Below, piece by piece: positions 3,063-23,242 of a stretch of DNA of 35,712 nt. The stretch is taken from positions 1 to 35,712 of IMG/VR virus record IMGVR_UViG_3300002144_000101. One strand, 5' to 3'. The notes beneath the pieces are model-generated. The model was not told the origin of the DNA. It did no database searches and saw nothing but the letters and a program-made list of their open reading frames with translations. The position numbers and the translations under genes are program-made. The stretch is from a virus. Each line of letters opens with the position of its first letter. Within the stretch, counting starts at the first letter, position 1.

Positions 3063-3087
3063 TTTCTAATTAACTCCGATATAATAT

Positions 3088-3880: not shown

Positions 3881-6800
3881 TTACGTAATGTCCGTATGTA
3901 GAAACTGTGCTGGCACTGTATTGCTAATTTGTAATGGATCTCCGAGTACAGTATTAAACACATAAGAGTTCCAAGTTTGATCGTAATAAACATTTGGTAA
4001 CATGTTTGTACTCAATAATCCAAGAACTTCAGTGTTAACAGGGATATCGTTTTGCTTACCTGTACCACCAGTACCTCTTTGTAATCCTGAAATCGAATTC
4101 GTTGCAAAGTCTACTGTAGTGAATCCAATTTGCTCACCATTAACGTAGATTTTATTACCAACAAGTGAAGTAATTGTCAATGTATCACCTGCTGTTATGT
4201 AAACACCTGTTCTAATATTCAATATCGGTGCTAAATCTACAACAGTCACAAAATAATCAGTCTCTGGATCTAATGTTACTCCAGTAGTAGTATTTACAAC
4301 AGTTACACCAGTTAGAATTCTTTTATCCGATACTAGTCCAATTGAGTATACGTTATTCACTGGGGAAGGTGCAGTATTTGTTTGTACTACGTTGTCTGTC
4401 AATCTAGTAACATCGTATACATAAATTGATGTACTTAATGCATTGATCGGTCTTGTCAACCATGTTCTTGCTTGTACGTTTGCACGATACACTGATGCTT
4501 CCTGCTCACTGTTAACAAAGTTCAAATAGATTTCTTCATCTGGAGTCGAGTCTGGTATCATGTTAGTCATAATAACTACGTCGCCTGGTTGAATAACTGT
4601 TAGTATACTTACTTCATTGTCAGCATTAACTTTTAATTTGTCAATTGGTACACGATAACCGTTAACAGTAATCCAAAGTCTTTCAACATTAGTTTGTTCC
4701 CATTGTGTTACGTTCATAATACCTGTAGCATTTGAAAGAGGGACTGATGCCAGTGAATCTCTAGTCGATTTAATCTTAAATGATGTTCCATTAACAATCT
4801 CTAAGACATAATATGTTGTGCCTTGAACAAGTCCACCTAATAATGCATCACCTGCTTGTGAACCTTGAGCAGTAAAGATGACCGGAGTATTAACAACGAG
4901 TTCACTCGTTGACGTTACAATAATTTCATTATCTGAAGTAACAGTTTCACTTGCTTCTGTCGTAACTAAGAAGAATGTTCCTTGTCTCCAAACATAGCCG
5001 CCGCTTATGTATGTGCTAATGCCTGTTACAGGGTTATTAATTGCATCGACTGCTGGGTCAAAGATTTGAGTATAGATATCAAATCTATTTGCGTCTACGA
5101 CTTTAACATAATAACTATTACCATTCAATTGAATTGAACCAAGTGTTCCGTCAATTGTACACAATACATCATCTGATAATGAATGTGGTATCCCTGTCGT
5201 AATACGTGTTGTCCAGTTTCCGCCTTCTCTAACAAGCATGTTGCCAGTAGCAGTTGTGAGTACAATTGGTGCACCAGATGAATCTTTTAGAGTTGCAGTT
5301 GTGCTAGTCAATATAGCATCAACAAAGTAGTAAGTGCCCTGTACTAGATTACCGAAGTTTGTTCCTGCGAATAGCACAGTCTGCCCTACTACAAATCCTG
5401 ATGTTGAAGCAAACGTAACTACATTTGTTCCACTAGTAGTGTTAGTCGCTGTTGTAGTGATCGGCACTGTCATAGACGTAACAATTGCAGTAATGTCAGC
5501 AACAGTAACAGCATTTGAACTACCTACCATTGAACCCGTGCCTGTTGTAACTGTAATAGGAGTTCCACCAACTGTCAATGAGAGTGTAAACGTTGTTGCA
5601 TTAATAATTTGTAAGATATAGTACGTCACGCCTGCAGTAATCCCACCGAATGTTGAAGCAGAGAACACGATAGGCTCATCTAATGTTAAGACTGATGTGT
5701 CAGCACAAGTTAAGGTGTTTAATAACTCATCGTATGTAACGATACTTGGTGTATTCTGATCGTATGACTCTACACTTGGTGTGTCTTCATCAAAAGTACC
5801 TTCGTAATGATCAGTAGCAGTAACTGTAATTGTTGTAGGAGAACTGCCTGTAATACCAGCAATACCGTACTGTGTTGTTAAGTATTGTCTTCCAGTATCA
5901 TTGTATGTCAATACTGATATCTTCGCTCCGTTTGCGGGAGGAGCATTGAACAGAATAGTATCACTACCTGAATCGATTGTGTATTGTGATATAGTTTGTC
6001 TTAGTCCATCAATCTCAACAATAGCATTATGTGGGTTAGTGCCGCCTACAAAGTTATCTAATGCATACGATGAACTTGACCCGTTACCCACAAACTCTTG
6101 TACTTCTGGAACAGTATAGCCGTATTGAGTATCACCGTTTGATTCTCCGAACAATGAGTACACAATGTAGTCAGTATCATTTGCATATGAACTAGGAGGA
6201 CCGAACACAAGTTTTGCTTGAAGACCGTTTGGTTGCTGTGCAATTGCATAATCGTTTGATACATAAGATGATTTACCTGATGCATCAGCAAGTGTTAACA
6301 CTGTTCCACCTAGAGTTTCGGAAATTGTAAATTCATTTCCATCTATAATTGTTTTAATAAAGTATTCTGAATTAGGTGTAATGTCAGTTCCAAACATATC
6401 TGCCGCAAAGTAAATTCTACTGTTTGCAATTAAGCCTACAGTTGAACCAGTTGTGATTGCATTGTTACTTGCTTTTGTTCTACTAACAGTGTTGTTTTTT
6501 CCCAAGACAAGTTTATTGCCGTTGTGATAAACAATAGGATCAGTCCAAACTGTACCTGTACCAGTTTGAATATTAACAATCATCGACCCGGTTGCGTCAG
6601 TCAAACTGAACACTGGGCCAGCCAAGCCTGATGTTGAATTGTAGGTTGCTGAAATTGTTATTGAATTTGTTGCTGTTGAAATTTCTTTTACATAGTAAGT
6701 GACATCTTCTGCAACGCCACCAAAGACAACTCCTTGGAATGATATTGGATTGTTGGCAACAAAGTCTACAACACTTACACATGTAATTCTATCGGAAGAT

Positions 6801-9800
6801 GCTTCTGTTTCTGTTGCTTCAATTTCAACAGAACTTGAACCGGTTCTAATTAAACCAGAACCTTGGAAGTAAGTGTTGCTGAAATTACAGTTGAGATAAA
6901 TGTCATCGAAGCCAGTTTCATCTACTTCTCTGATAGGATCAGTGTCTGTGTTTGCTTTTACTAATTGATTTCCGTTACCAACTTCATAAACATCAACTCG
7001 CAATTGTTCTTTTGGAGCAAACTGTAGTGGTGTATTAAGTGTAATCACTTTAGTTGGCCAATCAATCGTGTACTCGCTTGTAGCAAGTCCTGTACCCAAA
7101 TTTGTTGTTGGGTCAATGATCTGTAAACTAAGATCAATTGGATATTGTACAAACAAATCAAAACTAAAAGCAACTTGGAATTCTGTCGCTGGTTCAAGTG
7201 TGCGAGTCACAACATTATATCCAGTATGTGAGTACTCTGTTGGATCCCATAATGTTCCTGGACGTGTTACAACTGTCATTGCAAAGTTATCTTTGATATA
7301 ACCTGGAACTAGTTCTTCAGGTCCGTAACCGAATGCAAAGTTTGCACCTTGAACATCGTAGATAGGTTCTGCTGTAGTAAATGCATTCGTTGTTGCCCAG
7401 GTTACACCAGAGTCAGATGATTGTAAAACTATATTATCGTCGCCGACTACAATAAAGATATCTTCATCTGAATTGTAATTAACACCGTTCAGATTACTAG
7501 TAGTATTTGATGTACGTGTTGTCCAAGTCAAGCCATCGGTAGATGTCTGTATTCTACCGCTATCACCGACTGTCATCCAAATGTTGTTAACATAGACAAC
7601 ATCGTTTAGTGTTTGTGCTGTTGCATCATACAACGACATTCTACATTGTAGAGGGATAATTGCATCTAGTAACGATACCTGAGATGTCAATGCAGGGTCT
7701 GTAAAGAGTTCTACTTGAGTACTAGTAATAACATCAACGTAGTACGTTACTCCTGCTGTTAATCCACCGAACGAGTTAGATACTCTAATTGGATCTGCGT
7801 CTGCAAATCCTGCTGTGTTAGTGACGTTAAGTTGATCTGTTGCCGAGTTAATAGACACTACATCGACTTCATTGATGCCTGTCCAACTGCCACCGTTTGT
7901 GGTTTGATAGACAACGTTGTTCTCACCAACTGCTATAGCGATTGTTCCGTTACTTGCAACTGCGTTAAATCCGTTAGGAGTAAGTGATGGTCCGTCTGAC
8001 CAGAACTCACCAGATGCTTCATAACTATAAGCAATGATGTTTGTGTCTATTAACTCAGTAACCCCAGTTGAGTAATCATATTTCTTACCCTTACCTACTG
8101 CGATGAATCCACCGAAGTTTGAAGTGTCGATTGATTCAACACCATTCAATGATACATCAAAAACTGTGTTGTATGTTTTGCGTGATAACCACGTAAGGCT
8201 ATCATCACTTTGTACGATTTCGTTGCCGACTGAAACGTAGTAGCCATTTCTGTATGCTACACTGTTTAGTTGTACAGCAGGAACAGTCAATACTGTTGAA
8301 TTAGTTGTCCACACAACACCGTCATTACTTCTAAAGATCGGAGTTGCGGTGTTAGTAGAAGACATGACATAAATGCCATTGCCTAAAATAATATCAGTTA
8401 AGTTAAGTACTGATGTTGCAATTTGTTTAATTGCCCATGTCGATCCTACAATTGATGTCAGTAAGCCTGAGTATGTTCCTAAGTTTGCAGACGCAATATA
8501 ATGGTTTCCGTTCCAAAGCACAGACGTACCTGAAATTCCTGTTGGGTAAAAAGACTGATCTTTTAATTGTACGTCAACAGTGTACTGGTCTTCAGGAGCA
8601 AACGCATTGCCTAAGTAAACAGCATTCGGGTATGACACACCCTCGAATAATTGAGTAAGATCAAGGCCTGGCATGTTGACTGTGGGTTTGTAAAAACCTT
8701 CAACTCTATCTAATGCATTAAGTATACGATTGTCTGATCGCAGTTCTTCCCATTTACCAATAATAAATTCATTGTCATCATTTGATACAACACATCTGTA
8801 AACTCTGTTTAGGTATTTTACAATTGACTGATTAAAGTAGAAAGGCTCTGGTAAGAATGCATAACTACCTGCTTTAGACATTGAGAAGTCTGTTGCAACA
8901 CTTGTAGTGGCGGCTATTACAGATCCGCCTGGGGTAGTAGACACCGATACCCCATTACCATTAATTAATACGATATAATAAGTTGTGCCACTAGTTAAAT
9001 TACTAGCAGTGGCTTCTGCTGTACTCAATCCCATAAAGACTACTGGATCGTTCAACGAGAACGTAGATGCATTTGATACAGTTAAGTAACCAGTAGCAAC
9101 GCCGCCCGAATTTGTTGCGGTGACACTCGTCGTTACAAAGCCACCGAAGTCAAATCCTATTCCAGAAACCGGAACAGTCATCAATGCATCTGAGTAGACT
9201 TCTGTCTGTGTATCTGATATGATCTTTAGATAATAATTAGATACTAAATCGTTTGGATTTCCTGATATAATTAAACTTGTGATCGCACCATCTTCATCGA
9301 CATCGTTTACTTGCAAGGTAACATCATTTGGCGTTGATGTTCCACCAACTTCTGCTCCAGATACTGTGATGATATTAGTAACTGCGTAGCCAGATCCTGC
9401 TGTACTGATGATTGCTCTGTACCCACCTAGTTTGTATCCGATATCGAATTCAGCAACTGCTTGTGGAGTCTGTGTAAAGTTGAATGTTGCTGAACTATTA
9501 GACAACGCAACATCTGCACCGCCTGACGATAGCGATACAGTGATATATTGTGCTCCAGTACCTGTCATTGATCCGTTGTCTGTTAATAGATCAAACTCTG
9601 GCCCAGATGCGACATCTGCGATTGTAAATGATGTTGCGTCTAGTATGGCTTTAACATAATACTCTGTTCCTACAACAATATTTCCTAGTCCTACACCAGA
9701 GAATATAATCGGCATATTTACATATAATGATTCTGTAGAAACACATGTTACAGAATTGTCAACTGTTAAAGTTCCTGTACAGAACACAGTGATAGATGTC

Positions 9801-12800
9801 GTTGTTGCAGTACCAGTACCAGTACCAACTCCAGTCGCTGTAAAGACTTCGCCAATGTTATTAGATGTTGCTCCGATATCAGTGAAGACTGTTGTGCCTA
9901 CAGTAGTAATTGTGTAAGTTGTTCCTATGATGAAGTCGCCAGCAGTTCTAATACTGTTACTAAAATCTGTAACATAGTAAGGAGTTCCCGCTGTTACTCC
10001 ACCTTGAGTAGTATCAAAAACAACTGGCATGTTATCATAGAAGTTACTTGTGCCTTTATCATTCTTTGTTAGTGCAATTCTATCAATAGTCGCAATCGTT
10101 GCACTAATTGCTCTAGTAATTTGAGCAGTTAATGTACCTGAAGCAATGTCAGTGTAATATGGAGACGTGTTGTACAAAGAGAATTGCTGTCCGTTAATTT
10201 GTCCAGGAGACACCGGCAACGATACGTTCATTGTCATTGAGCCAGTTGCAGTTGCTAATTGTAACACATCTTTTTGATTTGTCAATAGTGCAGAACCAGT
10301 AGACACACTTGTTAATGCTAATGGGTTATTGTTAACCTGTGTTGCAATTTTAATTGATGTTCCTGAAACAATTTCATTGACATAGTAAACAGTTCCTGAT
10401 ATGATATTACCATAGTTTGTAATTGCATTACCCGATCCATCGACCATTGAATTAAAGATGATCGGATCATTAATTGTAAGTTTGCTTGTATCTGCTACTG
10501 TAATTGCATTTGTTCCAGTCGTAGTTGCTGACACAGTTGTAGTAACAGGAGTTGCTGTTGGACTAATTGTGATAGTCTGACTATCAACTACAGTTGTTAC
10601 GTAGTAAACATCGTTTTCAACAATATTACCGAATGTTGTGCCTGTAAAGAATAACGGAATGCCTATATAGAACCCATCAGTTCCACCTGTGCCTATAACA
10701 CTCTGTGGAATTGTAAGTTTATTTGTTGTTACAGTCGTGGCTGTTGTTTGTAGTATGCCAGGATAATTTATTGTCAGCACTGCTGTATCAGAAACTTTAC
10801 CTGCATAACAGATCATAGAACCACTACCAGCGTTTAAGGGGAGTATGGTGCCACTGTTTGCTACTGCACTGATTGTAAAATCAGTTGTATTAATAATAGT
10901 ATTGACATAATAAACAGTGTCTGCTGTCAATCCACCGATGACTGCGCCAGTAAATTTAATTGGCATACCAACCGAGAAACCAATTGTCGAACCAGATGTG
11001 TTTAGTGTAGATGAACTGTCATACGGATTAAGTGTAAGTACATCACCAGTAGCATTAGTTGTAATTACTTCACGTGCAAATTCAGAGTACACTATTTGCT
11101 GATCGTTTACAACATTCGCTATTTCAAAAATCGCACCCTGTGCTGAGGCAGCGATTGATTCAATTGGTGGCTGGGTTGCTTGTAATCCTATAGATGAACT
11201 TGAAACGTTCTCACTGTTAAAGTAACTACCTGCAAAGAAAGAACCATAGAAAGCATTTGCTTCCCAATCTAAGATTTGACTTGTGTAAGTAGTTCTATCA
11301 TATCTTAACGTAGAAACGACTTCTCTAACAGGAGATGCACTAGAAATTGCCGACGCTCTAGCACCAAGATTTAATGCGAAACTTCCATCTGTTGTTGCAT
11401 CTGTGAATTTAATTCTATGCATTTGATTGACAGCATCAGCATAACTAGGATACAACGCAACAAGTGCTGTTGGATTTGTTTCTAGTACATTGACATAATA
11501 CCATTGGTTGTTAATTAAGCGAGTAACACTTGCACCATCTGTTGAATCTTTATATTGTACCAAATCACCTGTTGCTAGACTAGGGGCAAACAATGAAATT
11601 GTGTGCAACGTAGAATTAATATCTGCGTTTGTAAAGAATAGTTGTAAAGCAGGGTCGATTCTGATCTCTGGTAAAACAGCATACCCTTCACCGGGATTTA
11701 TAACTTTCACACTGTTAACAGAATCAATTGACATCACCACTTCGAATTGTGCTTCGACTCTTGGTTCTGGATAGATTGTTGTATCAATGTATGCTGTGAC
11801 ACGTGGAGGTTCCACGTAGCCTTTACCGCCATTTAAAATTAATACAGCAGGAAGATCAGTAAAGACAGATGCACCAGGAATATGTGATGTTGCAACAGTG
11901 TTGTTTATTCCTCTTTGTAAACCACCTAATATGTTTAATGCACGATCAACATATGAGTAAGCAATTTCTTCTTTGTCGATTACAATAGAACCGTTGATGG
12001 GGAAGCCAGATGCATTGTCAACAATCAAAACTGTTGATCCCAATGTTATGTAACTGCTAAGAACAGTTATGTTATAATCAGTCTGACCAGTGACAGACAC
12101 CCCGTAGTTATTAAACCACTCTTTGTATTGTGGAGTAGTCCAAATAGCATTCGTTGGTAAATATTGATTTACATTGTCTATGTCAGCATATACTAATTGC
12201 GGACTGATATACCTATTGACGTTCGTGTTGTACTCGGCTGGCAAATCAAAGTCAGTTACACCACCATTATATGGGTCAGTGCCAGTATATTTAAACAAGA
12301 AATCTTTAATCACAACGTGATAAGGCTTAACTTCATTTAGATAACCAGTCAAGAATGTTTGATTGTCTGTCTGGTAGTTTTGTATAGGTTTTAATTCTCT
12401 GATCGTATGACTTACATCGACAAGAGATGTCTTGTTTAACCAAGGCAAGAAGTTTTGTGATTCATCTGTTTCACTTTGAATGTATTCAAATAAAAGAATC
12501 AATGACTTGTTTCTGTGTGACACAAGTTCATCAATATAAATTTGCTCATTTAATGAACGAACGATCCAGCGTGTTTCTTCACTTGGATATTCGTCGTATG
12601 AAGCAGTGTCAAAGAAGTTGTCTCCGAAGCCTGTTTTGCCTGCGGCATAGTCCCACAAATATGTTTTAAATTTAATCGTACCGTTTTGTAAACCGACACG
12701 AGTCCAGACACCTGCGCCATCAAAGCGATAGAGTTCCCACTTGCCATCACCGTTTGTCTCAACGGTTGCTATAGTACCTACAGCAATTGATAGGGTGGCC

Positions 12801-15800
12801 AAGTCAGCATAGATTGCTACTGATACTGTTGACTTAGTATTGTTATTGTATTGCCCGACTGGATTTAATGTTGGCAAATACCAGTTGACATATTCCCAAT
12901 AATCTGTTGTATCATAATATGTTCCAGTCTGAAACAAGTATGTTGCATTTTGTCTTGTCTCTGATATCGGAACACTTGCTAATATTGTATTTGCGTATGT
13001 TAGATAATTTTGTATTCCCAAGAATCTGTTAAAGAAGAAACTTTGTCTTGGACGTGCTAACACACCAGACTGAACTGCTTTAGGTAAGAACGGATCAGGA
13101 ACAACTTGACCACTCTCATCAACACCAGACATAGAGTCTAGTAACCGATCATACAGCCCTCTAGGGACATTAGAGGGGAGTTGCACTCCTAATCTAGGTA
13201 ATCCCGGTAAGAAATCATCTGAGAAACCGTCTCTGATTAAATTGAATTCCTGGTGCGGGACAGCATCACTATTTCCTGTTGCAAACCCTACATGAAATAC
13301 TGAATCAGTTGAATTAATGTATGTTTCTGAGTTGTAGATAGCAAAAGCGTTTTGCAACAGTGGCGCCATATAGGCGATGCCTGAACTTTGTGGTCGAGCA
13401 ATATAAAATTGTAATGTGCTGTCTGCTAATGTTTTATTTCTATCTGTAACGACAACGTTTGTGTTACGAACCCAGAAATAATATTTAGGTATCACAACGT
13501 TGGAAGCGTTTAACACACTTTCAACACTATAAACAGTAACGTCTTTTGGTGTTCCCAAACCTGTATATGCTTCAGGAGGAGTGCCACTAGATACCCATGT
13601 GTAAACGGCTACATCTGATCCTGGGAATGTTTGTCCCCAATATCTGCTGTTGTACTGTGCATCATTGTTTTGATGATAGTTTACCCAACGCACGTTTGTT
13701 GTATCAAACCAAAGTTGTCCAAGGTTTCGATCTCCCCAGATTAAACCTCCGTTGACTCCACCTAGATTTACATTATAGTTAGCTGGATCTATGTTAGAGA
13801 TGTAATCTAAGTTCTCTCTGACCGCACCCAGCAACTTGTTTTGCATAGGATCGAAATAATCTAAATTGATTAGTGTGTTGTTTGTTTCAGCACTATAAAT
13901 TTGTGTGTTCTGTATTTTGCTAATATCTACAACTGCGCCTGATTCTCTATAAATCATCCAGTTACGTAGGCCTGACGCATTGTTATAAACGGTAATTTGA
14001 CCGTTGATGTCGCCAGGTAAGAAGTTAGGTGTTCCCACAACAACTCGGTTGTTGCTATAATCTAAAGCAGTTCCATATAAAGGCTCATTGCCGTATTGTT
14101 CTACTTTGCTGTTAATGTTCTGTGCGTAGATAAATTTGCCTGGCGCAATTAAACTTGGGTTGTAGTTTTGTAAGAAATCAAACATGTAGACTGCACCAGC
14201 ATTCGGATAAGTATCTACGAATCTTGTTGCATTGTTATCAAAGATAGTGTCGTTGTCTAAGTTCTCATCATCAGTAAAGTCAAATGTTGTTCCTAAGAAT
14301 CTTTCACCCAATGGTGCAGAGATAACAACAGAATCATATTCATTGAATTTAATTGTGTTGCCGAAACCGTTACGACTTGCATTGTGCGGGCATTTAATAA
14401 TTTGTGTTTTAACGTATGCTTCTAATCCCAACTCTGTCAAGGTGTCATAGTCTGTTTGTTGCAGAACTATTCTTTCATTGACAAGACTCAGGCCTGAACT
14501 AATAACAGAAATAATTAACTTGTTGTCGGAAGTTGCACTTGCTGTAATATTAGTAATGCTAGTTGACGCAATTGATTGTGCTACTGCTGTTGCATTGCTT
14601 CCAGAAGTTAAGTTAACTCTGAAACCGTTAATCAATAAGGTTCTGTTTGCAGTTAGGCTACATGCATTTGTGCCTGTTACGACTCCGTATTTTCCGCCTT
14701 GATTTGTAAATCGATAAACAACACCGTTATAGGTTGTGGGTCCTTCTACTATAATTTCTTGAGGAGAACCAATTAATACTTCACTACCACTTGCAGTTGT
14801 GTCATTAGCATAACCAAATTGAGCACCGACTCGTGTGTCATTATCTGCTACAAATGATTGTTCCCATATAATTACTTTACTGCTTACAGTAACAATGTCG
14901 CCTGCTTTCAGTGTTCCGAAATATCTTAAGGCTTGTTGTCCGCCACCGACTGCATAATTGCTGTCATCAACAAATGTACCATTGACTGATACTTTTGTTA
15001 TTGAACTGTCTACTTGATTATAGATAGTACTGCTAAGTGTAGGCTCGGTTGTTAATGTTACAACAGTATTAGTTGATCTGCTTTCTTTAAGTGAGAAGAC
15101 TCCTATTCCAGTTGCTGTTGCATAGTAAACTTGATCTGGATTGATTCCTGAATCACCAAATGTTCCTGTCTGCGAGAAAACGATTGCATCATTGTCGCTT
15201 ATAGTTGCGCCTGTATATGAAATAACATTTCCTGTTACTCCCGTTGCTGTTCTGCTAACAAACAATTGTGTCCATGCTAAATCAAATTGATGTGGCTGAT
15301 TAGGGAGTGAATTATATTGTGATTCAAAATTCTGTACTACTCTATTAAAAATGTATGTTGCACCAGAGTTATCTGTGCCAGCGACCGAGCCTGTGTTTGG
15401 AGCTCCGACAATAATCTTATCACCGTTGTTATCTGTTGATACACTAAAGCCAAAATTGTCGCCTGCTATTGCATTAATTGGAGCAACTGTGCCCTCAATT
15501 TCAGCCAATTCTACATAAGAGATTTGATCTGCTGTACCAGTACCTGTACCAACACCAGTAGCATTAAAGATAATGCCTACTTTGTTGTCTACTGCGCCTA
15601 GTGCTTTAAAGTCTGTTGTGCCTACGCTTGTAATTGTATATGTTTCACCAATTGTAAAGAAGCCTGCTGTGAAAGGTATGCGTTGTCTACTGTAAACTTC
15701 GATTTGATTAGACAGTGGGCTACCTGAATATATCCACTCTTGGTCATCACTGATTGCTAGACTTGTGCCTGCACCTTCTGGACCAGTAAATGATTGCAAC

Positions 15801-18800
15801 AAGATAATGTCATCAGTTAACACAGTATCGTTTAATGTATAAATTCTAAGTGTTGATGATCCGAATGCGCCAGTGGTAGTTGTTGGCTCACTGATTACAA
15901 AAAGATTACCTGAGTAAGCAATTGTTGTGCCGAACGATGCCGCACCTGTTAATGTGCTTCCAGCATCTAAATCAAATGCAGATGTAGTTGTGTTGTATCC
16001 GTAACGATAAACTTCACCAGCGACTTGATCACTGACTAAGTAACCCATTCTAGGTGTATATGCTACTGCACTACCGAATGTTTCACCGTCTGCTTTTGAA
16101 AGTGTATTTAATTGTGCATAGTTGATAGACTTTCTATATACTCCCCAATCACCACTAGATGCTTCATCAACCCAGACGGTGTTCTTCGAAAATTCTGCTT
16201 CATTTAAATCTAAGTCTGCAATTTTTGCAGGAGTGGCTATTCGTTGGTTAACAAATGTAAGTCCTAAGCCATTGCCTGATAATACTATATCATTAACTGC
16301 TGGTAAAGTCAAGTTAACTATAATGTCAGTCAGACTTGCAACTCTAGTTACTAAGTAATAACCATTGACTTCAGTAGATACATTGATAAAATTAATCGGG
16401 TCTAATCGTGTTAACCCATGTGGTTTATTAAACGTAACCGTAGTTGTGTTGTCTGAGTTAGCACGAAGTCCTACTACTCTGCCAACAGGTTTCCAAGCAT
16501 AGACTCCCCACTTTTCTTTAAAGTTCGCTAACCAAACATAATCTCTAACATAGAAGTCCCTGATTGGAACTCTGATTAATGCTTGACTGACAGCATTAGG
16601 CAATCCACTGTAATAAAATGATGACATTTTTACGTCATTAAAGTTTACATACCCGGCTGTCGGATATAAGTTTTGTGTTGATGTTGTAGTCAGTGTCGGT
16701 AACACAGCCGGAGAACTAAGTGGTCTAGCATAGTTATACAGACTGTAGATTGGAACTTCTTGTTGTGAACCCGTTGTTGACACGCCGTTTGTTAAAGACA
16801 CAATGCCAGGATTACCTGTCAATAGTGATTCATTTAATTTAAAATCTACAAAATTATTATTAAGAGTGCCGCCGAACTGCCCTGATAAAATACCCCAGTT
16901 TTCATAGACATCATAATCAATGCCGCCTTGTGGCAATGACGCACCTTTAAATGCAGACACTGCGTTAACAGTACCTTTTGATTTAATCATGTTCTTGTAA
17001 ACATTGATTTGCGTAATGTCTGAAAGATCGATTACGTTGAGATAATCTCTAGGTCTGTAACCAATCAACGAGAATGATAATTGATCAGCATCATTTTCTA
17101 AGTTTGCTTTGTTCGTATTATAATACAATGTTTGCTCATACGCTCTTGTAGATGAGTTAGGTAGCAACCCTGTTTGTATTTGATCATAGTCTGTTTCAAC
17201 CCACTCAAGTTCTTTGAACGTTGCAGAAGGTTCGAGTACTCGGCTTGCAATCCAGTATTTGTTTTTGAAGGTAACGATCATTCCCTTAGTGTATTTTACA
17301 CCAGAAGCCCATTCTTTTACATTGTCTTGGTTGTATATAAATCCAGATGCAAAGACAGTACCATTCCATTCTGCTGATTTAGAGCCGCGTAAGAAAACAC
17401 GATTTTGTCTAAGTCCAGTAACTAAGTTATAGATGACATCGTTAAAGTTTGTTGTATTATTGAACACAATGCCATGTTCAAAATTACTTAAATTAAATTG
17501 ACCGTAGGCAAACGTATCTCCAGTATTTTGTGTCGTTATTGTAAACTCTGTGTCGAGTCTTTTTATTGCCATGTCTTTCAGAGCAATCGGATAGAAATTC
17601 TGATTCAACACAAAATTGTTTTGTGCAATCGTCAATGGTTGAACAATGTTACTTTCTTTGTCAATCTTTAGATACTGCGCCGCAGGGTTAACTGTGATCA
17701 GTGATCCGTTTTCCCAAGACAGTTGAACCCAGTAAACATATTCTCTAATCATCAATTCCCAGTTAACTGCGTTAGCAAATTCAATTAGATCAAACTTCAT
17801 GCCTTTGCGTTCTGTCCACGCTCCGTAACTTGCTAAGAATTGTGCTACTTCTTGAGGTGTGTAGAATTGTGTACCGTATGGAACTAACTGTTCTTCTATG
17901 GCAGTAGTTGTGTAATCTTTAGCAACTCTAACTGTTAAAGTGTCATACGTAATGACAGAATTGTTTCCATTCAACAAGGGTCTATCAATTGTAAAGTATG
18001 CTTGACTTTGTGAGTTTCCGAATACTTTCCAACCATTGGCTACTTGTTGTATAACAACAGCAGAATAAACAATTTGATCAATTGGTTGGTTATCATGTAA
18101 TAATACTTGATAACTTTCATCTGGGATAAGCAATGACGCATTAACACTGTTTGGTGTTCCTTTCTCTACAAAAAACTTGAGTAATGTTTTATCACTGTAA
18201 CCCGCTAATCTATAGACTAGCCTTACATCCAGGTTGTCAAGCAATGAAGTGATTGTTTTAGTAGCATCAATTCCTTGTTGCTTTTCAAAATCAACAATCC
18301 AGTTAAGATAACTTGTTTTTGCAGTACCAGAACCATAAACATCGACATCAGAAATAACCAAATGACTTCTGTCGTTCACTAGGTATTGTTTGAATTCTAT
18401 GTTATACTTGTAATTGTCTACGTCTACTGCTAAGTTAAAGAAATCTGCAGGCTTAGTTAATGCAAACAATCGCATTAAATCGAATGGCCACGAAGAACTT
18501 CTTCTGTATGAGAATTCTGCTGGTGCGTCATCTCCTGCTTTCCAATCTCTTTGGAAAGTAGTTTGCGTATAATTTCCTACAATCGAAACGAATGGTGACA
18601 CCAAGTTTCCTTGATCATCGACTGGTAATATTTTACTTAAGCCTGGGCGTTTTAATTGGTCTATGGTAACACTTAGTGCTACACTGCCGTTCCAAATAAT
18701 GCCTGCTTCTATGTCATTCCACATAACAGTGTTATTACTTGTGTATGGAGCCGCACCGTATTGTGCTGTCCACCAACTTGGCACCTCGGGGAAACCTAGC

Positions 18801-21800
18801 ATCTCCCATGGAGCAATGTTTGGCTGTGAAGTACCATAGAAATATTCGTAAACACCTCTCCAGTAACCTTGCTCTATTGGAGTGTTTGTTATTCTGTTTG
18901 CAGATTGAAAATAGTTCCAACTAAACTCATTACTACTTGAATATTGTTGATCTTTGTAGTTAATTCTGTTCTGGCCAGCCCAATTTAAAAAGCGTGGGGT
19001 GTAAATCTTTAACCAATCTGCGGTGCTATAACTAGATTCTCTAAAGAATCCAGGTAGAACTTCGTATGCTTGTATAGGAACGATTGTACTTAATTTGAGG
19101 TTGTTATAGATTCGAGTTTCAAATTCTAATAGTGCTTGATCTCTAAAGTCTGTAAGTCCTGTTGCCGGTGTATAGTCTAGTGTGTACAGTGACGTGTAAG
19201 AACCATCGTGTCCTTTCAACATGTAAGTAGGGACTGAGTAATTAGGATCTAATACAACACCAGGCAAAAACGCTGGATAAAGTCCTAACTTAGTAGGAGT
19301 ATTCGGAATATACGAACCATATGTTTGATTGTATTCTTTAATCGTTACTATGTCTCCAGCAATCAATCCGATTGTTACAGTTAACGATGGAGCAGTAATT
19401 GAGACTGTGTAATCAACGCCGGTGATTAATTGAGTCGTTGTTGTTTTACCTACTGTTGTTCTAGTTAAGTAAACTAAGACTCCGCTATAATTTGCTTTTG
19501 AAAAATCATAAATTGTACTTAACGGATAAATCGCTTCTGTTAGAGCATTTGCGAATGTGTAAGTAGTTGACTTATACGGAGACTGTGACGGCAACATATC
19601 AGACCAGAAGAATGAATCCGAGTCTGATTTAGATTGAGTAATCGCTTCCAATGCAGTATCTAATATAACCGATGGATTAAACCGTTGTGCAAACTCAGTG
19701 TTATTAACTGTCTGTACTATAAGTTGTTTGTATTTGATGTACTGTTCAGAGTTATACTGTAACGCATCAAAAACATTGTGTTCTGATTTACGCAAGAAGG
19801 TACCTGGCATAACGAGTGATGCGGAATTTTGAATAATCGCTGTTCCGTATGGCACCATGTTGCCTAAGTCTCTGTAGTTGTTAGCACCAAACATAACGCC
19901 GGCTGTGTTAGCATTGTTAATAAAAATATCTTGGTACTGTCTTCTAATATCACCTAGGGCCGCTGTACCTAATGTCTCATTGAACGGGTTGTTGCTTAAA
20001 TTTACAGGTATGCTATAATAAGCAGTTGTACTAACTTGTTTACTTAATAGTAAAATCTGTATAGGCGTATCAATAATAGGTGCAGTTTCTAATGTAATCG
20101 TAGTTGTTTTAGCCGTTGAAGTAACTGTGTATTCGGTAGGCAGTTGGTAGACATTATTTACGTATACTTGCACAGACGGCCACTTGTTTGTGACATTCGG
20201 ATCCGCGGGCAATACTGGAACATCACACGTGAATGAGGCTGTGGTCCCTGCTGAATATTCTAGTTCAAATATTTGATATTGAACTGAGGGGGCAACCGCT
20301 GTTTGCCAACCTAATTCACGTGTTTTTGTGATACGTGTATTATAATTGTACACATAACCTGTATTAATTAGTTGCGTAACTGGACTTGTCCCTGTTACAT
20401 AAGTAAATGTATCGACATTTAATGAGACATCAAAACTAATATCGCCTTGGTTCACAAGATCAGAGTATCTGACAGGGAAACCCAAAACCGAATCGTTTAC
20501 GCCCACACCGCGGCCATATGCAAAAAGTTTATTACCTAAGAATGATGTTCCTTGATAAATTGTAGCGTCTCCGAACGACACGCTGTCTTTGTCATAGACA
20601 TCAAATAATGGTGCCTGATTAACTGTTAGTTTTTGTTGACCTTCTTCCCATGCAGTTCCATCGAACCAGAAAGTAGAGCCTTGATTGTAATAGCCTCGAA
20701 GTGCAACAGTTTGATTATCAACTAAAACGGGAGAATCTTCTGACTCGGATAATGTGATCGTAAGATTAGAAGATTGGGTTATTTTTGAAAAGCCGACAAC
20801 ATAAATTGTATTTTTAACATTTGCATTTGTGTCTGCTGTAAAGATAATTCTTGCGCCAGAGAACAATTGATAATTGTTAACAGTTGTGTCACTACCAACA
20901 ATTTGTGCAACTGTTGTGCCTGCAAAAGTTGAACTAACAAACTCAACAGTTATAACAGTGTTTGTTCCACTGACAGTTATGTCAGTGATTTGCGTGTTGT
21001 TTGGCAACAGATTTGTAGAGTCTGTAACATATTGTCCGACTTGGAACGGCTTAGTAATGTTAGTTGTTGCAATCGTAATCGTCGTGCTTGTGGCCGCAGT
21101 AGACGCCGCTATTGTAGCATTGTACGTTGTGTATGATTCAATGTCTGGATAATATTGTTGTTGGTTAGCAACTTGACTAAATGCATTTGTTGTGCGTGTA
21201 TCAACAAAGTCAACAGGTTTTTTTGCTTCTGTGCCAGCATCAAATAGTTTGAGATTTGGATAGAACTCAATGATCGGGCGTTTTGCTTTATTCTTACCAG
21301 TTGCATATGTAGTAGTAATGGTTGGATTGTTATTATAAGTCGCAGATGCATTGATAACATCAATGTGGAACCATCTGTTAGATCGTGACCAAGCATTCTT
21401 ATTAATTGCGTTTCTTGCAATAGTAATGTAATCTTCGTCAATAGGTATAAACAATTCAACATCGAAGTTGCCAATTGAATAGTTCAATGTGTCGTAGGGG
21501 ATATACTCAGTGCCAGTAAAATCTTCTGGGACCGATAGTTCTGTGGTCGGTATAAGTTGTATTGACTCGCCTACGCCTTCAACGTAATATTCACCTGTCA
21601 AGTAACTACTAGGTATAACATCTCCTTGAAACTGAACTTTTAAGCCGTTAGTAAACGCCACACCATTTGTTGATGTAAATGTTTTTTGTCCGATGACATC
21701 GGTATCAACATCTAATGTGTTTGTTAGGTTACTATCAATGAGTCTTATTACACCCACTTTGTTTGGATTTGTTCCATCTTGGTAGTATAATGTATCTAGT

Positions 21801-23242
21801 ACTGCTGATAGATAAGGGATTTCTAAAACAACGCCTGCGGCATTTCTATAGAAAGTTAAGCCTAAGTAGTCAGTACCAAATTGTGCTGTAATCTTTTGTT
21901 CAGTTGGAATAACGCCGGCTGGTATTAAACGAATAGTTGGGTTAGTTGCATCACCAATGTAGGTGATTGTGTAAAAGTTTTCATTAACGTTTGAATAGAA
22001 ACCGTCTTCAAAAAGACCTTCATTAACGTTTGCGTTCATTGTGCCTGAATCAGCAGTCATTACTAATGCAGGACCATTTAAAATGTCTGAAATCTTAAAT
22101 GATATGCTGTCAACAATTTCTTTTACATAATAAATTGTATTGACATCTAATCCACCCAATAATGGATCGCCGCTTGGTTGTGCAAAAGTAACTGTTTGGT
22201 TAAGTATTAAATCGTCAGTTGAACCAGATGTAACAACTGCGTCAGTAGTAGTTGCTGTGATTGCTAACGTTACTGCTGGAACAAGATTAGGAGATGTTAA
22301 GTTAACATCATAGTTTGCTCCGCTCTCATCAAAGAATGACTGTACAAAGCCTACTTCGTTTGGTTCTCCAGTGGCATAGAACATAACACTAAGATTTTCA
22401 AGTGATGTTACTCCGTCAATGTTTCCTACTTCAGACAACGTTTTTCCGTTGATTTCAGAAAACAGAGTAGTACTGACAACATCAACTAAGTTGTTGCCTG
22501 GAAACAAGTATTGATCTTGTGCATTTCTGTTTGGGACGGTGAAGTTAACAAAACCCTGAAACGCTCCGTTATTACTAACACCTAAAACTTCCCTAGTGTT
22601 TTGGTTACTGTCTAGTCCAGTAGTACCTGGGACGCCTTGAATCCAAAACTGAGTTGGTTGATTAACTGCAAATCTATAACTGCCACCACGTAGCAACGTA
22701 ATTGTCGGGTTGTTTGATCCTGTCGCCGCTCCCAGTGCCTTAATGTTATATGCATTTGGGGTGTCTGTCACAACATAATCAGATGTTGAAAACACGGTTG
22801 CTGATGATACCGTGACCACTGGCGGTCCGGTTGGGATCCAGTAGTACTGATTAAAATTTATAAGTTTATCTAAGTCGGTAAATGAATCCCATGAATAGAT
22901 TTCACTTGTAAAAAGTCTATCGTTGTTAGTAGTAATGCCGTTGCGTAATTTAAGAGCATCTAATATGCCTGGGTATGTAATAAAATCTTTTGCAACTGAC
23001 TCGTTTTCTTTTAAGAAAACTACACTCGGATCTAACTGATAATCTGTGCGAACTTTAGTAGGTTCAATGACATAGTTATCTCTAGCATTTACCCCATAGC
23101 CAAATTTATTACCAACATACCCCTGAAGTCTTTCAGTAACCGGAGGGTTGACCAACTGATCAAGTGTCGCTCCTAAAAACTGAGCATTAGTATCAGTTTT
23201 AAATATCTCTGGTAAGAAATTAATAGTTCTAATTTTTGCCAT
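3881..23242 (-). CDS. Giant modular baseplate/tail structural protein, 6453 aa
   Basis: A single open frame of 6453 residues lies directly downstream of gp25 and gp6, where the T4 order would place gp7 (about 1030 aa in T4). The N-terminus (INFLPEIFKTDTNAQFLGAT, residues 7-26, through YYWIPTGP near 135) resembles a structural protein of marine T4-like phages. Further along: a carbohydrate-binding-like patch near 1973-2015; an FG-GAP-like seven-repeat set at about 2380-3090; a conserved-looking segment near 3590-3670 (TGYLNEVKPYHVVIKDFLFK); a GLQRG module near 3776; three GxGY motifs; YYV beta modules at about 4080-4765 and 5465-6180; an Asp-box-like seven-repeat set at about 4905-5290; and a second GLQRG module near 6386. 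There is no signal peptide, protease or lysozyme motif. It is too beta-rich for a tape measure. A weak AAGGA lies 15 bases before the ATG. gp7 identity is inferred from position only. Confidence 0.85.
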   Translation of the reverse strand: MAKIRTINFLPEIFKTDTNAQFLGATLDQLVNPPVTERLQGYVGNKFGYGVNARDNYVIEPTKVRTDYQLDPSVVFLKENESVAKDFITYPGILDALKLRNGITTNNDRLFTSEIYSWDSFTDLDKLINFNQYYWIPTGPPVVTVSSATVFSTSDYVVTDTPNAYNIKALGAATGSNNPTITLLRGGSYRFAVNQPTQFWIQGVPGTTGLDSNQNTREVLGVSNNGAFQGFVNFTVPNRNAQDQYLFPGNNLVDVVSTTLFSEINGKTLSEVGNIDGVTSLENLSVMFYATGEPNEVGFVQSFFDESGANYDVNLTSPNLVPAVTLAITATTTDAVVTSGSTDDLILNQTVTFAQPSGDPLLGGLDVNTIYYVKEIVDSISFKISDILNGPALVMTADSGTMNANVNEGLFEDGFYSNVNENFYTITYIGDATNPTIRLIPAGVIPTEQKITAQFGTDYLGLTFYRNAAGVVLEIPYLSAVLDTLYYQDGTNPNKVGVIRLIDSNLTNTLDVDTDVIGQKTFTSTNGVAFTNGLKVQFQGDVIPSSYLTGEYYVEGVGESIQLIPTTELSVPEDFTGTEYIPYDTLNYSIGNFDVELFIPIDEDYITIARNAINKNAWSRSNRWFHIDVINASATYNNNPTITTTYATGKNKAKRPIIEFYPNLKLFDAGTEAKKPVDFVDTRTTNAFSQVANQQQYYPDIESYTTYNATIAASTAATSTTITIATTNITKPFQVGQYVTDSTNLLPNNTQITDITVSGTNTVITVEFVSSTFAGTTVAQIVGSDTTVNNYQLFSGARIIFTADTNANVKNTIYVVGFSKITQSSNLTITLSESEDSPVLVDNQTVALRGYYNQGSTFWFDGTAWEEGQQKLTVNQAPLFDVYDKDSVSFGDATIYQGTSFLGNKLFAYGRGVGVNDSVLGFPVRYSDLVNQGDISFDVSLNVDTFTYVTGTSPVTQLINTGYVYNYNTRITKTRELGWQTAVAPSVQYQIFELEYSAGTTASFTCDVPVLPADPNVTNKWPSVQVYVNNVYQLPTEYTVTSTAKTTTITLETAPIIDTPIQILLLSKQVSTTAYYSIPVNLSNNPFNETLGTAALGDIRRQYQDIFINNANTAGVMFGANNYRDLGNMVPYGTAIIQNSASLVMPGTFLRKSEHNVFDALQYNSEQYIKYKQLIVQTVNNTEFAQRFNPSVILDTALEAITQSKSDSDSFFWSDMLPSQSPYKSTTYTFANALTEAIYPLSTIYDFSKANYSGVLVYLTRTTVGKTTTTQLITGVDYTVSITAPSLTVTIGLIAGDIVTIKEYNQTYGSYIPNTPTKLGLYPAFLPGVVLDPNYSVPTYMLKGHDGSYTSLYTLDYTPATGLTDFRDQALLEFETRIYNNLKLSTIVPIQAYEVLPGFFRESSYSTADWLKIYTPRFLNWAGQNRINYKDQQYSSSNEFSWNYFQSANRITNTPIEQGYWRGVYEYFYGTSQPNIAPWEMLGFPEVPSWWTAQYGAAPYTSNNTVMWNDIEAGIIWNGSVALSVTIDQLKRPGLSKILPVDDQGNLVSPFVSIVGNYTQTTFQRDWKAGDDAPAEFSYRRSSSWPFDLMRLFALTKPADFFNLAVDVDNYKYNIEFKQYLVNDRSHLVISDVDVYGSGTAKTSYLNWIVDFEKQQGIDATKTITSLLDNLDVRLVYRLAGYSDKTLLKFFVEKGTPNSVNASLLIPDESYQVLLHDNQPIDQIVYSAVVIQQVANGWKVFGNSQSQAYFTIDRPLLNGNNSVITYDTLTVRVAKDYTTTAIEEQLVPYGTQFYTPQEVAQFLASYGAWTERKGMKFDLIEFANAVNWELMIREYVYWVQLSWENGSLITVNPAAQYLKIDKESNIVQPLTIAQNNFVLNQNFYPIALKDMAIKRLDTEFTITTQNTGDTFAYGQFNLSNFEHGIVFNNTTNFNDVIYNLVTGLRQNRVFLRGSKSAEWNGTVFASGFIYNQDNVKEWASGVKYTKGMIVTFKNKYWIASRVLEPSATFKELEWVETDYDQIQTGLLPNSSTRAYEQTLYYNTNKANLENDADQLSFSLIGYRPRDYLNVIDLSDITQINVYKNMIKSKGTVNAVSAFKGASLPQGGIDYDVYENWGILSGQFGGTLNNNFVDFKLNESLLTGNPGIVSLTNGVSTTGSQQEVPIYSLYNYARPLSSPAVLPTLTTTSTQNLYPTAGYVNFNDVKMSSFYYSGLPNAVSQALIRVPIRDFYVRDYVWLANFKEKWGVYAWKPVGRVVGLRANSDNTTTVTFNKPHGLTRLDPINFINVSTEVNGYYLVTRVASLTDIIVNLTLPAVNDIVLSGNGLGLTFVNQRIATPAKIADLDLNEAEFSKNTVWVDEASSGDWGVYRKSINYAQLNTLSKADGETFGSAVAYTPRMGYLVSDQVAGEVYRYGYNTTTSAFDLDAGSTLTGAASFGTTIAYSGNLFVISEPTTTTGAFGSSTLRIYTLNDTVLTDDIILLQSFTGPEGAGTSLAISDDQEWIYSGSPLSNQIEVYSRQRIPFTAGFFTIGETYTITSVGTTDFKALGAVDNKVGIIFNATGVGTGTGTADQISYVELAEIEGTVAPINAIAGDNFGFSVSTDNNGDKIIVGAPNTGSVAGTDNSGATYIFNRVVQNFESQYNSLPNQPHQFDLAWTQLFVSRTATGVTGNVISYTGATISDNDAIVFSQTGTFGDSGINPDQVYYATATGIGVFSLKESRSTNTVVTLTTEPTLSSTIYNQVDSSITKVSVNGTFVDDSNYAVGGGQQALRYFGTLKAGDIVTVSSKVIIWEQSFVADNDTRVGAQFGYANDTTASGSEVLIGSPQEIIVEGPTTYNGVVYRFTNQGGKYGVVTGTNACSLTANRTLLINGFRVNLTSGSNATAVAQSIASTSITNITASATSDNKLIISVISSGLSLVNERIVLQQTDYDTLTELGLEAYVKTQIIKCPHNASRNGFGNTIKFNEYDSVVISAPLGERFLGTTFDFTDDENLDNDTIFDNNATRFVDTYPNAGAVYMFDFLQNYNPSLIAPGKFIYAQNINSKVEQYGNEPLYGTALDYSNNRVVVGTPNFLPGDINGQITVYNNASGLRNWMIYRESGAVVDISKIQNTQIYSAETNNTLINLDYFDPMQNKLLGAVRENLDYISNIDPANYNVNLGGVNGGLIWGDRNLGQLWFDTTNVRWVNYHQNNDAQYNSRYWGQTFPGSDVAVYTWVSSGTPPEAYTGLGTPKDVTVYSVESVLNASNVVIPKYYFWVRNTNVVVTDRNKTLADSTLQFYIARPQSSGIAYMAPLLQNAFAIYNSETYINSTDSVFHVGFATGNSDAVPHQEFNLIRDGFSDDFLPGLPRLGVQLPSNVPRGLYDRLLDSMSGVDESGQVVPDPFLPKAVQSGVLARPRQSFFFNRFLGIQNYLTYANTILASVPISETRQNATYLFQTGTYYDTTDYWEYVNWYLPTLNPVGQYNNNTKSTVSVAIYADLATLSIAVGTIATVETNGDGKWELYRFDGAGVWTRVGLQNGTIKFKTYLWDYAAGKTGFGDNFFDTASYDEYPSEETRWIVRSLNEQIYIDELVSHRNKSLILLFEYIQSETDESQNFLPWLNKTSLVDVSHTIRELKPIQNYQTDNQTFLTGYLNEVKPYHVVIKDFLFKYTGTDPYNGGVTDFDLPAEYNTNVNRYISPQLVYADIDNVNQYLPTNAIWTTPQYKEWFNNYGVSVTGQTDYNITVLSSYITLGSTVLIVDNASGFPINGSIVIDKEEIAYSYVDRALNILGGLQRGINNTVATSHIPGASVFTDLPAVLILNGGKGYVEPPRVTAYIDTTIYPEPRVEAQFEVVMSIDSVNSVKVINPGEGYAVLPEIRIDPALQLFFTNADINSTLHTISLFAPSLATGDLVQYKDSTDGASVTRLINNQWYYVNVLETNPTALVALYPSYADAVNQMHRIKFTDATTDGSFALNLGARASAISSASPVREVVSTLRYDRTTYTSQILDWEANAFYGSFFAGSYFNSENVSSSSIGLQATQPPIESIAASAQGAIFEIANVVNDQQIVYSEFAREVITTNATGDVLTLNPYDSSSTLNTSGSTIGFSVGMPIKFTGAVIGGLTADTVYYVNTIINTTDFTISAVANSGTILPLNAGSGSMICYAGKVSDTAVLTINYPGILQTTATTVTTNKLTIPQSVIGTGGTDGFYIGIPLFFTGTTFGNIVENDVYYVTTVVDSQTITISPTATPVTTTVSATTTGTNAITVADTSKLTINDPIIFNSMVDGSGNAITNYGNIISGTVYYVNEIVSGTSIKIATQVNNNPLALTSVSTGSALLTNQKDVLQLATATGSMTMNVSLPVSPGQINGQQFSLYNTSPYYTDIASGTLTAQITRAISATIATIDRIALTKNDKGTSNFYDNMPVVFDTTQGGVTAGTPYYVTDFSNSIRTAGDFIIGTTYTITTVGTTVFTDIGATSNNIGEVFTATGVGTGTGTATTTSITVFCTGTLTVDNSVTCVSTESLYVNMPIIFSGVGLGNIVVGTEYYVKAILDATSFTIADVASGPEFDLLTDNGSMTGTGAQYITVSLSSGGADVALSNSSATFNFTQTPQAVAEFDIGYKLGGYRAIISTAGSGYAVTNIITVSGAEVGGTSTPNDVTLQVNDVDEDGAITSLIISGNPNDLVSNYYLKIISDTQTEVYSDALMTVPVSGIGFDFGGFVTTSVTATNSGGVATGYLTVSNASTFSLNDPVVFMGLSTAEATASNLTSGTTYYIVLINGNGVSVSTTPGGSVIAATTSVATDFSMSKAGSYAFLPEPFYFNQSIVKYLNRVYRCVVSNDDNEFIIGKWEELRSDNRILNALDRVEGFYKPTVNMPGLDLTQLFEGVSYPNAVYLGNAFAPEDQYTVDVQLKDQSFYPTGISGTSVLWNGNHYIASANLGTYSGLLTSIVGSTWAIKQIATSVLNLTDIILGNGIYVMSSTNTATPIFRSNDGVVWTTNSTVLTVPAVQLNSVAYRNGYYVSVGNEIVQSDDSLTWLSRKTYNTVFDVSLNGVESIDTSNFGGFIAVGKGKKYDYSTGVTELIDTNIIAYSYEASGEFWSDGPSLTPNGFNAVASNGTIAIAVGENNVVYQTTNGGSWTGINEVDVVSINSATDQLNVTNTAGFADADPIRVSNSFGGLTAGVTYYVDVITSTQVELFTDPALTSQVSLLDAIIPLQCRMSLYDATAQTLNDVVYVNNIWMTVGDSGRIQTSTDGLTWTTRTSNTTSNLNGVNYNSDEDIFIVVGDDNIVLQSSDSGVTWATTNAFTTAEPIYDVQGANFAFGYGPEELVPGYIKDNFAMTVVTRPGTLWDPTEYSHTGYNVVTRTLEPATEFQVAFSFDLFVQYPIDLSLQIIDPTTNLGTGLATSEYTIDWPTKVITLNTPLQFAPKEQLRVDVYEVGNGNQLVKANTDTDPIREVDETGFDDIYLNCNFSNTYFQGSGLIRTGSSSVEIEATETEASSDRITCVSVVDFVANNPISFQGVVFGGVAEDVTYYVKEISTATNSITISATYNSTSGLAGPVFSLTDATGSMIVNIQTGTGTVWTDPIVYHNGNKLVLGKNNTVSRTKASNNAITTGSTVGLIANSRIYFAADMFGTDITPNSEYFIKTIIDGNEFTISETLGGTVLTLADASGKSSYVSNDYAIAQQPNGLQAKLVFGPPSSYANDTDYIVYSLFGESNGDTQYGYTVPEVQEFVGNGSSSSYALDNFVGGTNPHNAIVEIDGLRQTISQYTIDSGSDTILFNAPPANGAKISVLTYNDTGRQYLTTQYGIAGITGSSPTTITVTATDHYEGTFDEDTPSVESYDQNTPSIVTYDELLNTLTCADTSVLTLDEPIVFSASTFGGITAGVTYYILQIINATTFTLSLTVGGTPITVTTGTGSMVGSSNAVTVADITAIVTSMTVPITTTATNTTSGTNVVTFASTSGFVVGQTVLFAGTNFGNLVQGTYYFVDAILTSTTATLKDSSGAPIVLTTATGNMLVREGGNWTTRITTGIPHSLSDDVLCTIDGTLGSIQLNGNSYYVKVVDANRFDIYTQIFDPAVDAINNPVTGISTYISGGYVWRQGTFFLVTTEASETVTSDNEIIVTSTSELVVNTPVIFTAQGSQAGDALLGGLVQGTTYYVLEIVNGTSFKIKSTRDSLASVPLSNATGIMNVTQWEQTNVERLWITVNGYRVPIDKLKVNADNEVSILTVIQPGDVVIMTNMIPDSTPDEEIYLNFVNSEQEASVYRANVQARTWLTRPINALSTSIYVYDVTRLTDNVVQTNTAPSPVNNVYSIGLVSDKRILTGVTVVNTTTGVTLDPETDYFVTVVDLAPILNIRTGVYITAGDTLTITSLVGNKIYVNGEQIGFTTVDFATNSISGLQRGTGGTGKQNDIPVNTEVLGLLSTNMLPNVYYDQTWNSYVFNTVLGDPLQISNTVPAQFLHTDIT
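4700..6850 (-). repeat. YYV beta-module cluster II (giant protein residues about 5465-6180)
   Basis: At least six divergent copies of a roughly 60-80 residue unit. Each has a hydrophobic strand ending near DPIVF or VIF, a glycine-rich FGG turn, then TYYVxxI, an xxFTIS strand and a closing G(S/N)M motif. YY or YF cores in this cluster fall near 6700, 6370, 5630, 5340, 5115 and 4815. Copies differ strongly, so the expansion is old. The likely role is a rod or stalk of repeated beta domains. Confidence 0.7.
7370..8520 (-). repeat. Asp-box-like seven-repeat propeller (giant protein residues about 4905-5290)
   Basis: Seven repeats combine a strand pattern such as LNSVAYRNGYYVSVG with a following turn of the S-x-D-x-x-x-x-W type: SNDGVVWTT, SDDSLTWLS, YEASGEFWS, TTNGGSWTG, STDGLTWTT and SSDSGVTWAT, plus a less typical first unit (WNGNHYIAS to GSTWAIK). 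This is the pattern of BNR/Ycf48-like beta-propellers. The expected sialidase active-site arginines are not evident, so a binding or scaffold role is more likely than an enzyme. One YYV module (core near 7750) is inserted between the fifth and sixth repeats. Confidence 0.65.
8740..8850 (-). other. Carbohydrate-binding-like patch 2 in giant protein
   Basis: Residues about 4798-4834 read VKYLNRVYRCVVSNDD followed by GKWEEL. This is the short pattern of aromatic-bracketed modules seen in CBM5/12-like domains (V-x-Y, x-x-x-Y, terminal W). The motif is short and the call rests on spacing of aromatic residues only. Confidence 0.35.
8950..11000 (-). repeat. YYV beta-module cluster I (giant protein residues about 4080-4765)
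   Basis: At least seven divergent copies of the YYV module with cores near 10920, 10610, 10395, 9985, 9675, 9235 and 8985, for example DTVYYVNTIINTTDFTIS and GTEYYVKAILDATSFTIA. One short GTGTGTA module is embedded (9800-9935). Further single copies lie outside the clusters near 22140, 15125 and 7750. Confidence 0.7.
9800..9935 (-). repeat. GTTxF-GTGTGTA module, copy B
   Basis: About 45 residues reading IGTTYTITTVGTTVFTDIG, then F-TATGVGTGTGTA. The same module recurs at 15525-15660. It is a recurrent insert in structural proteins of marine viruses. The two copies are clearly related in protein and partly in DNA, so they could recombine. Confidence 0.6.
13980..16110 (-). repeat. FG-GAP-like seven-repeat propeller (giant protein residues about 2380-3090)
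   Basis: Seven repeats of the integrin FG-GAP type can be counted: GETFGSAVAYT, ASFGTTIAYSGN, GAGTSLAISDD, GDNFGFSVSTDNNGDKIIVG, GAQFGYANDTT to VLIGSP, GFGNTIKFNEYDSVVISAP and LYGTALDYSNNRVVVGTP. Each is followed by a strand such as GAVYMFDF or GATYIFNR. Seven units fit one closed beta-propeller. Inserts separate repeats 3-4 (GTGTGTA module), 4-5 (about 170 residues with a YYV-like core) and 5-6 (about 100 residues). Confidence 0.65.
15525..15660 (-). repeat. GTTxF-GTGTGTA module, copy A
   Basis: About 45 residues reading IGETYTITSVGTTDFKALG, then F-NATGVGTGTGTA, inserted between the third and fourth FG-GAP-like repeats. It is the partner of copy B at 9800-9935. Confidence 0.6.
17200..17325 (-). 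other. Carbohydrate-binding-like patch 1 in giant protein
   Basis: Residues about 1973-2015 read EWASGVKYTKGMIVTFKN, then KYWIAS and finally LEWVET. The pattern W-x-x-G-x-x-Y-x-x-G-x-x-V, Y-x-A, final W is that of CBM5/12-like chitin/glycan-binding modules. A surface-glycan binding role is inferred. Confidence 0.5.

Follow-up and report, generated by a model that had tools for sequence, protein, structure and literature searches.

What does a single open reading frame of 6,453 codons encode, when it is found in a linear viral fragment of only 35,712 bases from the IMG/VR collection (hereafter, the window), and is it one gene at all? The frame lies on the minus strand (3881–23242), begins with an ATG, and runs without an internal stop, yielding a predicted protein of 6,453 residues, ~702 kDa, and a pI of 4.4. 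As the ORF comes from a metagenomic fragment, it could in principle be an assembly chimera or the result of an uncorrected error that fused several genes. We searched viral contigs with residues 1041–1970 and with the last 920 residues of the protein, which returned 49 and 30 loci, respectively. The closest clade consists of homologues of 6,419–6,454 residues, each in a single frame, in at least five separate IMG/VR contigs, while other full-length single-frame homologues measure 5,373–6,631 residues and reside on contigs of up to 352 kb. Further merged loci outside the closest clade contain single frames of 5,994, 4,117, and 4,013 residues, and 19 additional contigs carry an intact giant frame of 4,124–6,671 stop-to-stop codons, except for one that is truncated at the contig end. 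Among the merged loci, the frame was broken in one contig only: In the close relative IMGVR_UViG_3300028844_002497, a frame change splits it into parts of 2,909 and 3,413 residues, owing either to a sequencing error or to a real split, and this relative is what can be cited in favor of a fusion artefact.

The sequence of the ORF itself speaks to the same point. The G+C content at each codon position is constant along its length, and the pN/pS ratio amounted to 0.14–0.31 in each 300-codon bin in a comparison with an 81%-identical homologue (0.13–0.32 over the whole length versus the closest homologues). Because the ratio is low in every bin, the entire frame, inserts included, acts as translated sequence under purifying selection, and no region of the ORF displayed diversifying selection. 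The chimera reading is thus refuted by the many independent contigs whose frame is unbroken and agrees in length and order, and the steady codon-position composition and the pN/pS values likewise rule out a frameshift artefact, leaving its probability practically at nil. A preliminary description of the window had reported one uninterrupted frame of 6,453 residues; that frame stands, with no assembly join.

The giant gene is embedded in a baseplate gene cluster. On the minus strand, the order is a virion-protein gene, a gp53-like wedge gene (33635–33955; PF11246, E = 4e-4, just under cut-off), a second virion-protein gene, a gene for a gp5-type hub protein (29245–31314; phrog_13211, with an OB domain, PF04717, just under cut-off), an unknown gene, the gene for a gp25-type baseplate wedge protein (26685–27134; PF04965 over cut-off, phrog_43), the gene for a gp6-type baseplate wedge protein of 1120 residues (23261–26623; phrog_10646, E = 3.7e-251; phrog_219, E = 1e-26), the giant ORF, a phrog_11259 gene (3096–3716), and tail-fibre-like genes.

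Profile searches place the giant protein in a known family. Its two halves matched PHROG 10938 (“virion structural protein”) with E values of 1.9e-209 and 2e-33, where the match covers several backbone blocks and is best at residues 1040–1970. Judged by these matches, the product of the giant ORF belongs to the PHROG 10938 virion proteins of jumbo phages. Using tblastn, we found homologues in 84 phage records, and all phages among the matches listed were jumbo phages. Almost all jumbo phages that we examined encode a PHROG 10938 virion protein directly after gp6. The order gp25-gp6-giant recurs in GAP32 (homologue of 3,341 residues), PA5oct (3,857), Atu_ph07 (4,449), Phosso (4,555), CBB (3,340), RaK2 (3,326), Munch (3,342), XacN1 (3,313), and phAPEC6 (3,323), and the giant gene immediately follows gp6 in Vibrio 2.275 (3,771) and in those environmental contigs where both genes are present. 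The adjacency is not absolute in the family, since in Salicola phage SCTP-2 (3,807) the giant gene lies ~90 kb from gp6. In the same phage (MF360958.1, 231230–234886), a different giant ORF of ~3,096 residues precedes the giant gene in place of gp6.

For three of the cultured relatives, the protein has been located in the virion: CBB_236 was detected by mass spectrometry with 21 peptides (PMC5259590), phAPEC6 gp245 (381.9 kDa) was detected by mass spectrometry with 17 peptides (PMC7247149), and the record annotation of the PA5oct homologue states ESI-MS/MS. Our sequence comparison identified phAPEC6 gp245 as a homologue of the giant protein. The relation to virion proteins suggested in the preliminary description is thus borne out by both the family assignment and these cultured homologues.

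Alignment of the whole family revealed conserved blocks at residues 1–150, ~600–2240, ~2900–3900, and the last 150 residues, with variable parts in between. The N-terminal domain (residues 1–150; 22793–23242; FLPEIF.T.TN.QFL.ATLDQL), a candidate wedge anchor, shares 54–87% identity with environmental homologues and 26–38% with those of cultured jumbo phages, in agreement with the phage-type N terminus noted earlier. The main backbone (residues ~600–2240; 16523–21445) matches PHROG 10938 and has a mean column identity of 66% in an alignment. A second backbone block, supported by PHROG 10938 and the alignment (residues 3100–3970; 11333–13945), contains beta modules that also occur in the giant gp7 proteins of cyanophages (DASGFP..G.I.I..E.I.Y and G.GY..PP), and the conserved C terminus (residues 6300–6453; 3884–4345) is found in both the long and the short environmental forms. 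The RaK2-, 121Q-, GAP32-, PA5oct-, and Atu_ph07-type members of PHROG 10938 occupy the same slot after gp6 and share the conserved N terminus and the backbone blocks with the window protein.

The variable parts, in contrast, are to a large extent built from repeats. A hidden Markov model of a ~75-residue beta module (GG[LI]..GT.YYV..I) detected 14 copies in the window protein. Copy 1 occupies residues 329–408 (22019–22258) and copy 2 residues 2672–2741 (15020–15229), whereas copies 3–8 (8894–11017) lie at residues 4076–4146, 4170–4244, 4239–4323, 4396–4459, 4490–4563, and 4708–4783, copy 9 lies at residues 5130–5201 inside the YCF48/BNR-like region discussed below, and copies 10–14 (4697–6814) lie at residues 5477–5559, 5589–5661, 5835–5910, 5933–6005, and 6099–6182. 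Neither a search for tandem repeats at the DNA level nor a self-BLASTP of the giant ORF recovered any repeat; the copies are too diverged for self-comparison, so that the HMM was needed. Most long environmental homologues carry 10–14 copies, three more divergent ones carry 4, 2, and 0, and the HMM detected no copy in either of the short environmental forms, in the homologues of cultured jumbo phages, or in cyanophage gp7. Among the loci compared, the module is confined to frames of the giant gene, some of them truncated. The two short forms (4,013 and 4,117 residues) also lack much of residues 4000–6300, and the cultured members (3,313–4,555 residues) are without the 14 modules and most of residues 4050–6300; the last 1,753 residues of the giant protein gave no match in cultured phages. 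Length differences between members would mostly reflect gain or loss of inserts.

Two further regions resemble propellers. Residues 2240–3150 (13793–16525) match the integrin-type FG-GAP repeat (PF14312, FG-GAP_2; E = 3.1e-8; 34.1 bits versus a Pfam cut-off of 23), and this region matches in 22 of 23 sequences. Residues ~4900–5300 (7343–8545) resemble the YCF48/BNR type (PSII_BNR), with 17.7 bits versus a cut-off of 27 in the window, matches in 7 of 16 sequences, and an E value of 5.2e-6 in the best relative. A chitin-binding type 3 motif (CBM_5/12, PF02839) at residues 1977–1998 (17249–17314) scores 15.5 bits, under the Pfam cut-off of 26.2, and recurs in 14 of 19 sequences with E values up to 0.1. 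The preliminary description had portrayed most of the protein as beta modules, with two propeller-like repeat sets and glycan-binding-like patches. The modular bulk is supported; as to the propellers, the FG-GAP set scores over cut-off and the YCF48/BNR set under it in the window, and the glycan-binding patches find weak backing in a motif that recurs but stays under cut-off. The best reading of this anatomy is that beta modules and propellers appear to have been inserted into a conserved backbone.

Is the giant protein then gp7? In the T4 gene order, the slot after gp6 belongs to gp7, a wedge protein that is present as a monomer in six copies and contacts gp6, gp8, gp9, and gp10 (PMC3004832). 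The giant gene occupies this very position, as the preliminary description had pointed out, and no separate gp7 was found in its relatives: T4-type gp7 (phrog_964) was absent from the complete genomes of GAP32, PA5oct, and Atu_ph07 and from four large environmental contigs (264–352 kb), in a search where T4 and P-SSM2 served as positive controls and where the window’s own genome is represented by a fragment only. By position, the window protein is accordingly the only candidate for the role of T4 gp7 (1,032 residues), from which it differs in being six times longer and in showing no detectable profile or fold similarity. We compared residues 1–330 and each 700-residue chunk of the giant family with T4-type gp7 and its helical core by hhalign and obtained no match, while cyanophage giants, used as a positive control, matched the gp7 core with E = 1.6e-12. 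Profile comparison at residues 1–400 and 3500–3700, the regions where gp7 homology had been suspected, likewise gave no match to T4-type gp7. The Tail_P2_I profile did not match relatives of the giant protein either, yet this search is insensitive because it missed T4 gp7 as well.

Cyanophages likewise encode a giant product right after gp6, of 3,495 residues in ACG-2014e, 5,195 in P-SSM2, and 6,737 in S-WAM1, the last of which is annotated as “baseplate wedge initiator”, and cyanophage proteins of 3,045–6,737 residues in this slot match the gp7 core. Like the window protein, these cyanophage gp7 proteins (PHROGs 2885/4406/701) sit right after gp6, are huge and beta-modular, and share two module types with it. 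They differ in carrying the gp7 helical core at their N terminus, where none is detectable in the window protein, and in being followed by gp8 in most cases, whereas no gp8 was detected in relatives of the window protein. Residues ~3620–3860 of the giant protein did align with cyanophage gp7 (E = 1.2e-5 to 7.9e-5), but we traced the apparent gp7 link at residues 3620–3790 to the shared beta modules and not to the gp7 core, and these modules occur in other baseplate proteins too. Separately, four stretches of the Atu_ph07 giant protein match a segment inserted in the cyanophage gp8 profile, which hints at modules that move among baseplate proteins.

Structure prediction yielded models with low to moderate confidence. 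AlphaFold2 modeled residues 1–1190 with a mean pLDDT of 54.7, with the N terminus (1–150) not modeled confidently, and residues 3100–4080 with a pLDDT of 67. The first model found no useful PDB match and the second no PDB match, with none to gp7 in either case. In a Foldseek search of BFVD, the model of residues 3100–4080 matched other giant phage proteins strongly, including that of Atu_ph07, and a cyanophage “baseplate wedge initiator” more weakly (E = 1.5e-4). Sequence-profile searches of the PDB with six segments returned nothing for the backbone and weak matches for the propellers only; matches to the P22 coat protein (E = 0.04) were taken as chance.

Two accounts of descent compete on these data. 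The giant protein may descend from gp7 as a true orthologue, so diverged that the similarity is no longer detectable (cyanophage gp7 comes close to this state), and have then grown by module insertion. The shared slot, the lack of any other gp7 in relatives, the gp7 core in the cyanophage giants of the same slot, the weak modules common to both, and the Foldseek match all point this way, but none of the stretches tested from the family matched gp7 or the cyanophage helical core, in a test that the cyanophages passed, and the cyanophage similarity is carried by modules present in several baseplate proteins; we consider this descent quite possible, if short of an even chance. Alternatively, an unrelated protein may have taken over the slot as a functional replacement, a scenario that we likewise entertain as possible at somewhat below even odds. 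It is consistent with the negative profile and fold tests and with gp8, which was not found in GAP32, PA5oct, or the environmental contigs either, such that the wedge periphery looks rebuilt; yet a missing profile match is weak evidence at such divergence, given the shallow family alignments (Neff 2.4–3.8), and the N terminus, the likely anchor, came out unresolved in the AlphaFold2 model. The cyanophage lineage has clearly enlarged gp7 itself, whereas descent of the jumbo-phage family from gp7 cannot be shown. Deciding between orthologue and replacement would reveal the way in which the baseplates of contractile tails are enlarged.

What the protein does can be approached from its position. 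One conserved gene stands beside gp25-gp6 and encodes a conserved backbone with inserts, under purifying selection throughout. In simpler contractile tails, P2 gpI is the third wedge subunit. In phage A-1(L), gp32 takes this place in a (gp31)2-gp32 wedge heterotrimer (PMC10966104). Both have the position expected for the giant protein, in a wedge where a pair of gp6-like chains joins one partner. By analogy with T4 (PMC3004832) and A-1(L) (PMC10966104), from which we infer wedge contact, copy number, and surface contact, the conserved backbone blocks would dock the giant chain on the gp6 wedge, probably with one chain per wedge and thus six per virion. The chain would then do the job of T4 gp7, joining the wedge core to the periphery with links to the tail fibres, and it probably makes up the outer baseplate. 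The inserts, modules and propellers alike, may add a large outer skirt that contacts or senses the surface of the cell and could support fibre attachment and baseplate switching. We regard as likely this overall picture of an expanded PHROG 10938 protein, anchored on gp6 next to the wedge, with a gp7-like job and inserts that form an outer skirt in contact with the cell.

Surface sensing is suggested by domain types, of which the CBM and BNR matches fall under cut-off in the window, and the adhesive superstructure proposed in the preliminary description is plausible. The inserts might instead act as passive spacers that give a big virion a bulkier baseplate without host contact. Their purifying selection, the homologous insert positions kept within the closest clade, and the failure to detect a catalytic domain in them would suit such spacers, whereas recognition is the typical role of folds such as propellers and the CBM_5/12-like motif that recurs here, and insert content varies between clades; we deem the spacer explanation less likely than not. 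A more radical version, where within this jumbo-phage clade an unrelated giant chain of ~700 kDa replaced gp7 (perhaps also gp8) and came equipped with propellers that sense the receptor and modules that bind glycans, fusing wedge scaffold and host recognition, strikes us as improbable.

The window protein is a new, module-expanded form of a known jumbo-phage virion protein, striking but not isolated. Similar giants, one longer still, are already in public databases: the earlier remark that the protein is exceptionally long for a phage is overstated in view of the 6,737 residues of S-WAM1 in the same slot, and a literature search for published claims of a largest phage protein returned nothing relevant. 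Giant proteins in the gp7 slot are a solution that recurs among large phages related to T4, and the insertable ~75-residue module and the propellers offer concrete fragments for host-binding tests.

A few neighboring genes drew attention in their own right. Enterobacterial jumbo phages carry an ATP-dependent Clp protease/ATPase gene directly after the giant gene (in one phage, a few genes away), possibly linked to folding of the giant chain there; no Clp gene adjoins the giant ORF in the window. The protein encoded between the gp5-like gene and gp25 (27155–29245, minus strand) ends in ~150 residues that resemble a Hint/intein-type self-processing domain, in a block that begins with GGGGCVVL, finishes with YVLHHN, and is 66–68% identical in the closest relatives; Pfam and PDB profiles give no support for a Hint-type domain in it. 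Finally, the tail-fibre-like protein at 1836–3062 (minus strand) displays a weak C-terminal match, under the Pfam cut-off, to Peptidase_G2, a self-cleaving intramolecular chaperone.
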